Assembly (NCBI RefSeq): GCF_029968035.1
Contig: NZ_JASCIQ010000033.1
Span: 1-64,000 of the forward strand
Length of the DNA stretch: 64,000 nt
From: Streptomyces cavernicola
GTDB lineage: Bacteria; Actinomycetota; Actinomycetes; Streptomycetales; Streptomycetaceae
Direction: 5' to 3'
Of the stretch, positions 99 through 47,556 are shown in pieces (position 1 is the first letter of the stretch; each line of letters starts with the position of its first letter). The notes below the pieces were generated by a model. That model ran no database searches and was not told the DNA's origin. It saw nothing but the letters and a program-made list of their open reading frames with translations. A program made the translations under genes and the position numbers.

Positions 99-1409
99 TT
101 AGAGGCGGCCAGCGGCCTTCAGTGCTAGATATGCGTCTGCCAGAGCCGGGGCCAATTCGTTCGGGGGCGCGTCGACGACAGTTACGCCGTGGCGGGCAAG
201 CCGTTCTGCGGTGTTCTGGCGTTCGTCCTGGGCTTGGGCGGCGGCTGCAGCCTCGTAGATGGATTCAGTGTTGCCGCGGCCCTTCGCCATGGTCTCGATC
301 TGAGGGTCTGAGACGGATGCCGCGATCACGGTATGGCGTTTGGTGAGACGCGGAAGCAGAGGCAAGAGGCCCTCTTCGATAGGGGCTGCGTCGAGGCTGG
401 TGAGCAGGATGACCAGTGAACGCCGTGGGGCCGTCTTCAGGATGGTGGAGGTCAGGCTGCGCGCATCGGTTTCGACAAGCGTTGGTTCGAGGGAAGCAAG
501 CGAACTGACTAGCGCTGGAAGAACGGCGTTCCCGGACCGCCCCTGGACGAGAGCACGAATGCGACGGTCGTAAGCCAGGAGATCCACGCGGTCGCCGGCC
601 TTGGCAGCCAGGGCGGCAACCAGTAGTGCGGCGTCCATTGATGCGTCCAGGCGGGGTACGTCGCCCACTCGTCCGGCCGACGTGCGGCCGCTGTCGAGGA
701 CCAGGAGCACGTGGCGGTCGCGTTCAGGACGCCACGTACGAACGGCGACAGTGGATTGGCGGGCGGTGGCGCGCCAATCGATGGACCTGGTGTCATCGCC
801 CGGGACATAGTCACGAAGGCTGTCGAATTCGGTGCCTTCGCCTCGGGTCAACACGCTGGTGCGGCCGTCGAGTTCGCGCAGGCGTGAGAGCTTCGAAGGC
901 AGGTGCTTGCGGCTGTGGAAGGCCGGCAGGACGCGAAGGGTCCACGGCACCTTGTGGCTGCCTTGGCGCGAGATCAGCCCCAGCGGGCCAGTGGAGCGCA
1001 CCGTGACGCGGTCAGGTTGGTGGTCACCGCGGCGAGTGGGACGAAGCCGTGTGGTGATCCGGCGTCGTTCCCTCGGGGGGACCACGATGTGTTGGCGTGA
1101 GGAGGTGGCTTCCGAGCCCGTTGCCCTACTGCTCGGAGGCCAGGCGTCCCGTAGCTGAGCTCGCAGAGGGCGGCTTGAAGAGTTCGTGATGGTCAGGTCG
1201 ATATCTGCACTCCCACTGAGTCGAACGTTTGTATCACCGGATCGAGTGAAGTGCAGCGTTCGTACTGGCGCGGCGAGGGCGTAGTCGCACATCATGGCTA
1301 GTGCGAGAGGGGAATTGACGGCGAGGATCCCCGTCCAGCTTGGCTCGATGAAGCCGACGGGGATGGTGCCAAGAGCCGCGAGCAGAGCGGCGCGTCCGGT
1401 GGGGGCCAT
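99..1409 (-). CDS. DUF58 domain protein (MoxR-associated)
   Basis: The 436-residue protein has two hydrophobic segments in the first ~48 residues, then a long cytoplasmic part. The DUF58 signature FDSLRDYVPGDD..SIDWRATAR lies at about 195-218, followed by a region that resembles a von Willebrand A fold without a complete metal site. DUF58 proteins are the usual genetic partners of MoxR AAA+ ATPases; their exact job is unsettled, though links to envelope and stress functions are proposed. It is the last gene of a five-gene minus-strand operon, starting 11 bases after the MoxR stop. The ATG has no strong ribosome site of its own (GAGG is 10 bases upstream), so translational coupling is likely. 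Confidence 0.88.
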   Translation of the reverse strand: MAPTGRAALLAALGTIPVGFIEPSWTGILAVNSPLALAMMCDYALAAPVRTLHFTRSGDTNVRLSGSADIDLTITNSSSRPLRAQLRDAWPPSSRATGSEATSSRQHIVVPPRERRRITTRLRPTRRGDHQPDRVTVRSTGPLGLISRQGSHKVPWTLRVLPAFHSRKHLPSKLSRLRELDGRTSVLTRGEGTEFDSLRDYVPGDDTRSIDWRATARQSTVAVRTWRPERDRHVLLVLDSGRTSAGRVGDVPRLDASMDAALLVAALAAKAGDRVDLLAYDRRIRALVQGRSGNAVLPALVSSLASLEPTLVETDARSLTSTILKTAPRRSLVILLTSLDAAPIEEGLLPLLPRLTKRHTVIAASVSDPQIETMAKGRGNTESIYEAAAAAQAQDERQNTAERLARHGVTVVDAPPNELAPALADAYLALKAAGRL

Positions 1410-45628: not shown

Positions 45629-47107
45629 GTGAGATCGGCGCCCACGATTCTGCATCTGGACATGGATGCCTTCTTCGCATCGGCGGAGCAGGCAGCCAAG
45701 CCGAGCCTGCGCGGGAAAGCCGTGATCGTCGGGGGGCTCGGGCCGCGTGGTGTGGTGGCCACGGCGTCGTACGAGGCGCGGCGGTTCGGGGTGCACTCGG
45801 CGATGCCGATGGGGCAGGCGCGCAGGCTCGCGCCGAACGCCGCGTATCTGGTGCCGCGCTTCGGGCTCTACCGGGACGTCAGCGAGCAGGTCATGGAGTT
45901 GCTGCGGGGGCTTTCGCCGCTGGTGGAGCCGCTGAGCCTGGACGAGGCTTTCGTCGATCTGGAGGCCGGCGGGGTGGCCTCGGACGCGGTGTCCGCGCGG
46001 GCGGTGGGGGAGCGGCTGCGGGCGGACATACGGGCGGTGACGGGGCTGACGGGGTCGGTGGGTCTCGCCGCGTCGAAGATGATCGCGAAGATCGCCTCGG
46101 AGGAGGCGAAGCCGGACGGGCTGCGGCTGATCGTGCCGGGCACGGAGCGGGAGCTGCTCGGGCCGATGTCGGTGCGGACGCTGCCCGGGGTCGGGCCCGT
46201 GACCGGGGACCATCTGCGGCGGGCCGGGATCACCACGGTCGCCGAGATCGCCGAGGCGGGGCAGGACGAGCTGGTGCGGCTGCTCGGCAAGGCGCACGGC
46301 GTGCATCTGTACGAGATGGCGCTGGCGCGCGACGAGCGGCCCGTGGTGGCCGAGCGGGACACGAAGTCGGTGTCGGTGGAGGACACGTTCGACGTCGACA
46401 TTCACGACCGGGTGCGGGTGCGTCTGGAGGTGGACCGGCTCGCGGAGCGGTGTGTGCAGCGGCTGCGGGCGGGCGGGCACTCGGGGCGGACGGTGGTCCT
46501 GAAGGTCAGGCGGTACGACTTCTCGACGCTGACCAGGTCCGAGACGCTGCGCGGGCCCACCGACGACCCCGGCGTCGTACGGGAGGCGGCGGCGCGGCTG
46601 TTGGAGGCGGTGGACACCACCGGCGGGGTGCGGTTGCTCGGGGTCGGGGTGTCCGGGCTCGCCGACTACACGCAGGAGGACCTGTTCGCGCAGGCGGCTC
46701 ACGCGAAGGAGGAGAAGGAGGAGCGGGAGCGGCTTGAGCGGGGGCTGGAGGAGCCCGCGGCGGAGGCCGGCGTGCGGGAGGCGGCGGAGGCGGCGACGGT
46801 TCAGGAGGCGGCCGTCGAGCCGCCGGCTGAGCGGAGCTGGCTCGCGGGGCACGACGTTCGGCATGCGGAGTTCGGGCCGGGCTGGGTGCAGGGCAGCGGG
46901 CTCGGGCGGGTCACGGTGCGGTTCGAGACGCCGTGGTCGGAGCCGGGGCGGGTGCGGACGTTCAGGAGCGACGATCCGCTGCTCGAGCCCGGGGAGCCGC
47001 TGCCGCTGGTGGCCGGGGCGGACGACGGCGAGGAGGAGCCGTCGTACGGGGCTCAGGCGGGGGAGTCCGGGTCGTCGGCGCCGGCGATACGGCCGAAGTC
47101 GCGGTAG
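45629..47107 (+). CDS. dinB: DNA polymerase IV (DinB) with C-terminal Tudor-like tail
   Basis: 492 residues. Y-family polymerase active-site acids are Asp11 (HLDMDAFFAS) and Asp105/Glu106 (SLDEAF); a helix-hairpin-helix (TLPGVGPVTGDHLRRAGI) and the little finger follow up to about residue 350. Then comes a charged linker and, at about 405-455, a module beginning GHDVRHAEFGPGWVQG that resembles the PcrA/UvrD C-terminal Tudor-like domain which binds RNA polymerase. Pol IV performs error-prone bypass at damage. The GTG start has no clear ribosome site. Its last 55 bases overlap the convergent PRC-barrel gene. Confidence 0.92.
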   Translation: MRSAPTILHLDMDAFFASAEQAAKPSLRGKAVIVGGLGPRGVVATASYEARRFGVHSAMPMGQARRLAPNAAYLVPRFGLYRDVSEQVMELLRGLSPLVEPLSLDEAFVDLEAGGVASDAVSARAVGERLRADIRAVTGLTGSVGLAASKMIAKIASEEAKPDGLRLIVPGTERELLGPMSVRTLPGVGPVTGDHLRRAGITTVAEIAEAGQDELVRLLGKAHGVHLYEMALARDERPVVAERDTKSVSVEDTFDVDIHDRVRVRLEVDRLAERCVQRLRAGGHSGRTVVLKVRRYDFSTLTRSETLRGPTDDPGVVREAAARLLEAVDTTGGVRLLGVGVSGLADYTQEDLFAQAAHAKEEKEERERLERGLEEPAAEAGVREAAEAATVQEAAVEPPAERSWLAGHDVRHAEFGPGWVQGSGLGRVTVRFETPWSEPGRVRTFRSDDPLLEPGEPLPLVAGADDGEEEPSYGAQAGESGSSAPAIRPKSR

Positions 47108-47442
47108 GGGGGCGGGGTCTCCATGGGGGCGGAGACGTCGATCCCGTAGTGGTGGTAGAGCTGCAGTTCCTGCTCGGGGGAGAGGTGGCGGCCGACGCCG
47201 AAGTCGGGGGCGTCCTTGATCAGGGAGCGGTCGAAGGGGACGCGGAGTGCGCCCTCCTTGAACTCGCTCGGTTCCAGGGGCACGAAGGCGTCCCGGCTGA
47301 ACAGGCCCGTCCGTATCGCCGCCCACTCCATGGCGCCGGTGGCGTCGTCGAGGTACACCTCGTCCACCGTGCCCAGTTTGGAGCCGTTGCGGTCGAATGC
47401 CTTCCGGCCGATCAGGCTCCGCGGATCCATGTCGGTCTGCAC
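47053..47442 (-). CDS. PRC-barrel domain protein
   Basis: 129 residues from GTG 47442, which has GGGAGGG four bases upstream. The PRC-barrel starts at LIGRKAFDRNGSKLGTVDEV, and a longer version with HHYGIDVSAPME at the end is conserved in Streptomyces. PRC-barrels occur in RimM, photosynthetic reaction centres and standalone actinobacterial proteins of unknown role, often stress-inducible. It is convergent with dinB with a 55-bp overlap of coding sequences. Confidence 0.85.
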   Translation of the reverse strand: MQTDMDPRSLIGRKAFDRNGSKLGTVDEVYLDDATGAMEWAAIRTGLFSRDAFVPLEPSEFKEGALRVPFDRSLIKDAPDFGVGRHLSPEQELQLYHHYGIDVSAPMETPPPYRDFGRIAGADDPDSPA

Positions 47443-47556
47443 GGTCCCTCCCGCAGGTCGCGACTCATCAGTCAGCACTGCACAAACATCCCTCATCACT
47501 ACAAAAGAGCAGTTTCCCGGCGAAGGCCACTCGAGGCCTGAGTGGGCGGGCTCACC

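Follow-up and report, generated by a model that had tools for sequence, protein, structure and literature searches.

The window analysed here is a stretch of 64,000 nucleotides of Streptomyces cavernicola DNA. On its forward strand the frame at 45629-47107 is open over its full length and, as read from sequence and models, almost certainly encodes a DinX/DinB1 polymerase with a Tudor tail of the UvrD type. The gene and the parts of its product are as follows.

45629..47107, + strand: dinX (dinB1) open reading frame, a Y-family DNA polymerase IV of the DinX group, 492 aa, GTG start, stop included
45656..46102, + strand: IMS catalytic part, residues 10-158 (PF00817, E 2.1e-44)
46364..46681, + strand: little finger IMS_C, residues 246-351 (PF11799, E 2.6e-27)
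46673..46687, + strand: probable beta-clamp binding motif QEDLF, residues 349-353 (QEDLF in 92 of 107 aligned sequences)
46712..46834, + strand: variable linker, residues 362-402 (cross-genus identity 0.08, 47% gaps)
46835..46990, + strand: Tudor-like tail domain, residues 403-454, five predicted strands (from profiles, model and conservation)
47000..47104, + strand: unconserved C-terminal end, residues 458-492 (cross-genus identity 0.06 over residues 455-492)

The NCBIfam equivalog NF002882 'DNA polymerase IV' matched with 622.9 bits (cut-off 389), and since this match spans residues 1-469 the tail lies inside the curated family. By its sequence, the gene is the streptomycete orthologue of DinX/DinB1, a translesion polymerase with predicted clamp binding. 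The motif QEDLF at residues 349-353 is probably the beta-clamp motif of the protein, and in mycobacterial DinB1 a clamp role has been reported for the motif QESLF (PMC9346131). The linker at residues 362-402 is probably disordered; in the full-length AlphaFold model, which was poor overall, its residues 373-399 had a pLDDT <50. The neighbours of dinX are genes for an FHA protein, two MerR regulators, a bifunctional-nuclease-domain protein, a PRC-barrel protein (opposite strand) and gcvP, none of which suggests a dedicated system. The 3' end of dinX shares 55 bases (47053-47107) with the end of the convergent PRC-barrel gene (47053-47499, minus strand). A scan with an SOS-type operator pattern gave 61 sites against 47.8 expected, which is no clear excess as 7 of 100 shuffles had at least that many, and the interval from the upstream gene to dinX contained no such operator. 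When the whole genome was searched for IMS, dinX was found together with a second match that was partial only (positions 78-147, 30.5 bits). This second match may be an inactive scDinB2-like protein, such as has been described for S. coelicolor (PMC6511836).

The original prediction placed a module resembling the C-terminal Tudor-like domain of PcrA/UvrD near residue 407 of this frame. The sequence GHDVRH does start at residue 407, and the conserved module covers residues 403-454. An AlphaFold model of the tail, built from the window sequence and 37 homologues, had a mean pLDDT of 83.5 and five strands (409-412, 416-424, 427-432, 441-446 and 452-454). The same five tail strands recurred in the full-length model (17 sequences; mean pLDDT 45.9), which was poor elsewhere. 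The models support a five-stranded Tudor-like barrel. In a Foldseek search of 350,542 PDB chains, UvrD-type C-terminal domains took ranks 1, 2, 8 and 10, namely 7egs_B (E. coli UvrD CTD with an RNAP lobe, E 5e-3), 7egt_B (T. thermophilus UvrD CTD with UvrB, E 2e-2), 5dma and 9dqs_C. No chain matched at E<=0.001, so that the top E-values are not significant alone, and ranks 3-7 were other small SH3-like barrels (NdhS, Ssl0352). With VIA, M. smegmatis UvrD1 (9dqs_C) gave a Z of 7.2 and G. stearothermophilus PcrA (5dma) a Z of 7.0 with an rmsd of 1.7 over 49 residues; these UvrD tails tied with the top two rows, which were a Tudor chain of SETDB1 at Z 7.7 and a chain of a Pol II elongation complex at 7.3, a Z of 6-8 being common for the small-barrel fold.

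SH3-like barrels frequently bind nucleic acid, and ribosomal-protein and Spt5/NusG-type barrels were among the weaker structural matches. On this count the tail could be an SH3-like module that binds DNA or RNA and so strengthens the grip of the polymerase on the template. We consider this very unlikely: the sequence matches are to UvrD tails, the tail module is roughly neutral when its charged residues are counted by eye, and the PcrA tail was reported to bind neither single- nor double-stranded DNA (PMC5397179).

The preferred reading, that the tail is akin to the PcrA/UvrD Tudor domain, was followed at the level of sequence. A search of the genome with PF21196 (PcrA_UvrD_tudor) at E<=10 gave three matches, none of them at dinX, and DUF3553 scored the window sequence at 14.4 bits (cut-off 20.3). 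Since the window sequence alone fails PF21196 and the DUF3553 cut-off, the link between the tail and UvrD appears only with profiles or structure, and by the PF21196 model the DinX tail is a relative of that family, not a member. DUF3553 matched 13 of 20 DinX family members at E<=1, the best at 8.7e-6. As a single-sequence query against PDB sequences the tail found nothing; a profile of 20 DinX tails gave five matches at E<=10, four of which were UvrD/PcrA, with a best E of 0.014. When 246 genomes of the phylum were searched with the DinX-tail profile, UvrD-type C-termini were matched at 11 loci (L148-L158, E 3.5e-7 to 2.0e-5). Six of the 11 proteins were scanned, and all six had UvrD_C and none a PcrA_UvrD_tudor match at E<=0.01. 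These tails are confined to one actinobacterial genome family, and by their profile matches the UvrD tails of this one lineage bridge the DinX and PcrA/UvrD tails. The hhalign score between DinX and PcrA tails was 29.4, with a column-shuffle maximum of 17.8 of 100 (18.5 of 100 in a second run), and that between DinX and the bridging UvrD tails was 41.6, a score without shuffle control. The profiles support homology of the DinX tail with the PcrA/UvrD tails, and the resemblance originally proposed has thus been borne out by the five-stranded model, the Foldseek ranks of the UvrD domains and profile homology. As a separate observation, the UvrD proteins of L148, L156 and L157 showed a weak intein-splicing match in the helicase (28-31 bits, cut-off 35.8) within frames of ~1,100 aa, and inteins are possible there.

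In PcrA, mutation of H681, W684, K712 or L714 severely cuts the pulldown of RNAP in each case (PMC5397179). The equivalents in the window are H412, F415, R443 and F445, respectively. The local hhalign alignment with PcrA spans the first three strands only (columns 3-34), and since it stops after strand three the places of K712 and L714 were mapped by eye, from strand order and the bridging tails. Strand 4 reads VRTF in DinX and K-R-L in PcrA, and the 11 bridging tails, also read by eye, have RTF in five cases and KTL, KTF, KTM or RIF in the others; within the limits of a by-eye reading, they fix how strand 4 is to be aligned. The H681 place is H in 106/106 DinX homologues, the K712 place is R or K in 102/106 and the L714 place F or L in 106/106. 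The W684 place is mixed (F/Y/H/W/L), with H in 13 of the 18 sequences from other genera. As aligned, the contact places of DinX are similar, not identical, to those of PcrA. More generally, the DinX tail shares with the PcrA/UvrD CTD (PF21196; PDB 5dma, 7egs, 7egt, 9dqs) the five-stranded barrel, the long linker, the C-terminal place and the HxxxGxG start, but it sits on a polymerase, has a shorter turn between strands 2 and 3, has R and F where PcrA has K and L, and carries an extra conserved GWVxG and DDP.

The spread of the tail in actinobacterial DinB proteins, and the chance that it would turn out poorly conserved between species, had been named in advance as bearing on the prediction. 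At E<=0.001 the tail module was present in 58 of the 148 genomes of the class, spread over 24 of its 81 genera. Identities were taken from an alignment of 107 sequences, which comprised the window, 28 of 29 class loci and 78 of 80 loci of near relatives (the others lacked the start motif); the near relatives were the best 80 of 573 and are biased to close kin, and 30 of the 58 class tail places were taken as loci. The tail proved to be conserved, its identity to the window being 0.64 in the 18 other-genus sequences and 0.83 in the 88 of own-genus type, against 57% and 85%, respectively, for the catalytic core and 0.08 and 0.19 for the linker (106 homologues). In these alignments the tail module is conserved to the same degree as the polymerase core. 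Across the 246 genomes of the phylum there were 16 strong tail matches (E below 1e-18), all in the window's own class, and the weaker matches, where checked, were other proteins. Among the NF002882 matches listed, the 54 class polymerases above 430 bits were all in genomes with a tail match, and most matches below 430 bits stop at about model position 345-372 (both by eye). An origin of the tail from phage or plasmid was considered and set aside, since at E<=1e-5 phage records gave no match to the tail and plasmids a single one. The sole plasmid match belongs to a tailed DNA polymerase IV of Tsukamurella tyrosinosolvens (NZ_LR134460.1, 360 kb, positions 279201-279338, 60.9% identity). At one other locus (L074, a Streptomyces tuirus record) a tail-bearing open frame lacks the polymerase start motif, for which a frameshift or a fault of the assembly may be responsible.

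The changes of K to R and of L to F at the contact places, together with the variable aromatic place, could signal a new surface. In that event the tail would have diverged to regulate the polymerase from within or to dock with some unrelated partner, for example in the end-patching of Streptomyces telomeres, and contact with RNAP would still be possible through the catalytic core, as with the palm and fingers of E. coli DinB (PMC10359629). We regard such divergence as unlikely, given that the tail is kept in so many genera of the class and is also found in M. tuberculosis DinX (PMC6511836). Because of this same spread, the tail is not peculiar to the linear-chromosome Streptomyces, and a telomere-specific role for it is weakened. 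From its position adjoining gcvP, we take the DinB1 studied in connection with the Streptomyces linear replicons to be the orthologue of the window gene. In that study (PMC4513846) the linear replicons were reported to need either DinB1 or DinB2, which would fit a telomere role, but DinB1 proved dispensable for the first nucleotides, and in vitro it failed to extend them.

The reading of the DinX tail as a Tudor domain of the PcrA/UvrD type is in substance already published. Timinskas and Venclovas (2019; PMC6511836) described a Tudor-like domain (DUF3553) in M. tuberculosis DinX with the PcrA/UvrD tail as its closest structural homologue, noted that the conserved contact residues are similar, and predicted RNAP binding with a possible role in transcription-coupled repair. 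DinX with a Tudor domain has since been listed among the Y-family groups unique to Actinobacteria (PMC12926913, 2026). The suggestion that the link between polymerase and transcription is 'possibly under-described' therefore does not stand, since the domain, the comparison and the hypothesis are all in PMC6511836 and links between E. coli Pol IV and RNAP are documented (PMC3901139, PMC10359629). The window protein shows no substantial difference from the DinX/DinB1 group (M. tuberculosis Rv1537; NF002882/PRK03348), with which it shares the polymerase, the QxxLF-type clamp motif, the probably disordered linker and the Tudor-like (DUF3553) tail (PMC6511836, PMC12926913); it is a streptomycete member with F at the W684 place. 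The mycobacterial DinB1 work considered here deals with the clamp motif and mutagenesis (PMC9346131); the effects of DinB1 overexpression depend on the clamp motif, and the main text of that paper never mentions 'RNA polymerase'. An experimental test of the DinX tail was not found in the open-access literature (bioRxiv and most subscription journals were outside this scope), in which a single paper uses the term DUF3553. What is added here are the bridging UvrD tails, the contrast in conservation between tail and linker, a specific competing candidate for the partner in UvrB, and the occurrence of this kind of tail on another enzyme, RecQ.

Binding of the tail to RNAP would be plausible, although the contact residues are kept in part only and UvrB is documented equally well as a partner of this Tudor type (PMC8318588). 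As the main partner of the tail, RNA polymerase (through its beta subunit) is our first choice, with about an even chance of being correct, and UvrB is a close rival. The two stand close, because a TGE-tipped hairpin is what UvrD-type tails bind in either partner, and both host proteins have looser forms of it. The PcrA Tudor domain docks on the TGE-tipped hairpin of RNAP beta, the same motif serves this purpose in UvrB, and UvrB in its free form competes against RNAP for PcrA (PMC8318588). The strict helicase interaction motif of that paper was absent from the host UvrB and from the 894 RpoB residues examined. The host RpoB loop, TNNETGEIK, has three departures from the published motif, and the hairpin TGEIKS was found in 30/31 RpoB pieces of the class (30 loci, from 52 matched genomes, plus the own genome). 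The host UvrB loop is LHPLTGEVI, and 20 of the 21 UvrB ORFs that were recognised in the class contained a loop matching L(H/N)P(L/V)TG(E/D)(V/I); of these 20, 17 differ from the published motif at a single position and three (TGD) at two. The UvrB tally covers the 21 of 30 loci that were recognised by pattern, these loci representing 30 of 56 matched genomes, and three of the nine missed loci had the loop. Presumably, the conserved TGE hairpin of RpoB is the very hairpin where CarD and Mfd dock. RNAP is ranked first mainly because this hairpin lies in the beta1 region, the docking region of CarD and Mfd (PMC5397179), and because of the modelled-residue argument of PMC6511836.

Were UvrB the main partner, the UvrD-type Tudor tail would bring DinX to excision sites for gap filling or bypass without RNAP, a reading that we hold to be rather unlikely. 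The use of the UvrB hairpin by the PcrA Tudor domain, and the competition of free UvrB with RNAP, are what such a reading would call for; Foldseek placed a UvrD CTD in complex with UvrB second, and the conserved UvrB loop is nearer the published motif than the host RpoB loop. On the other hand, the RpoB hairpin is equally conserved, the loop pattern missed nine of 30 UvrB loci, and PMC6511836 favours RNAP.

For docking on RNAP, further comparison comes from other proteins. The RNAP-interaction domains of CarD and Mfd have a Tudor-like fold that binds the beta1 region of RNAP (PMC5397179), and T. thermophilus CarD was matched to the DinX tail by VIA with a Z of 6.3, but there is no clear sequence kinship between these domains and the DinX tail; the Tudor domains of PcrA and Mfd were themselves described as having no apparent homology (PMC5397179). 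E. coli Pol IV is tied to transcription through the RNAP core (PMC10359629) and through NusA (reviewed in PMC3901139). E. coli DinB binds the RNAP core directly with a KD of 6.4 nM, the contact is made by its catalytic core (palm and fingers), and the affinity is virtually the same without the C-terminal little-finger domain (PMC10359629). According to the same paper, E. coli DinB consists of this core plus the PAD. Unlike in DinX, the contact is thus by the catalytic core or by NusA, and the available text of PMC10359629 and PMC3901139 mentions no Tudor tail. This binding makes the presence of a Pol IV near RNAP believable and shows just as well that no tail is needed for it; by analogy, DinX might contact RNAP independently of the tail. 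Also counting against the RNAP reading, transcription-coupled repair in M. smegmatis did not change significantly when UvrD1 was lost (PMC10023983).

The tail domain, its kinship with UvrD and its conservation come directly from the computations, and a model built on them can be put forward. DinX would carry its UvrD/PcrA-type Tudor tail on a flexible tether and use it to dock on RNAP. After displacement of RNAP or excision of the lesion, the clamp motif would pass DinX to the sliding clamp, and DinX would then fill or bypass the damaged stretch. The same tail surface could be used by UvrB, at a different time or instead. We give this sequence of RNAP docking by a tethered tail and clamp handover, as the best explanation of the whole, an evenly balanced chance of being right. 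If the tail does bind RNAP, actinobacteria would direct their error-prone synthesis to transcribed DNA, with a bearing on the sites of mutation.

The same type of C-terminal tail was found on a further enzyme, the helicase RecQ. A DUF3553 search of the class at E<=0.01 gave matches in 34 of its 148 genomes, 27 of them above the family cut-off; the window's own genome had no DUF3553 match at E<=0.01. Thirty DUF3553 loci were fetched, of which 26 were RecQ-like by helicase motif or Pfam, three were DinX (L265, L273, L287) and one (L288) was unread. The RecQ-type loci are L259-L264, L266-L272 and L274-L286, in which the tail lies ~1.5 kb into the locus, together with L159 and L161. All 12 candidates scanned with Pfam (L159, L161 and ten others) had the RecQ zinc-binding domain, and the remainder are assigned by helicase motif only. 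With near-copies excluded, the RecQ tail set comprised 22 of 27 tails. Their hhalign score was 58.1 against PcrA (best of 100 shuffles 16.4) and 37.2 against the DinX tails (shuffle maximum 17.6), and the contact places were H in 22/22, W or F in 19 and 3, K or R in 11 and 11, and L in 22/22. By these alignments, many actinobacterial RecQ proteins carry a PcrA-type Tudor tail that is nearer to the PcrA contact residues than that of DinX. This finding may be fresher than the reading of the DinX tail. We tentatively propose, as a possibility that we think somewhat doubtful, that at least three unrelated repair enzymes of actinobacteria, UvrD/PcrA, DinX and RecQ, share the tail type and would compete for the TGE hairpin of RNAP beta and UvrB, such that damage-stalled transcription would form a shared landing pad. 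If shared docking of this kind were true, a helicase, a recombination helicase or an error-prone polymerase would be selected at damage-stalled transcription. Partial matches to the PcrA/UvrD Tudor model were also seen outside these enzymes: in three genomes of the window's genus (G169:C1:6331368, G152:C1:1410868 and G165:C1:2017815), short ORFs of 102-121 aa matched its first 31-35 positions with 23.6-24.0 bits.
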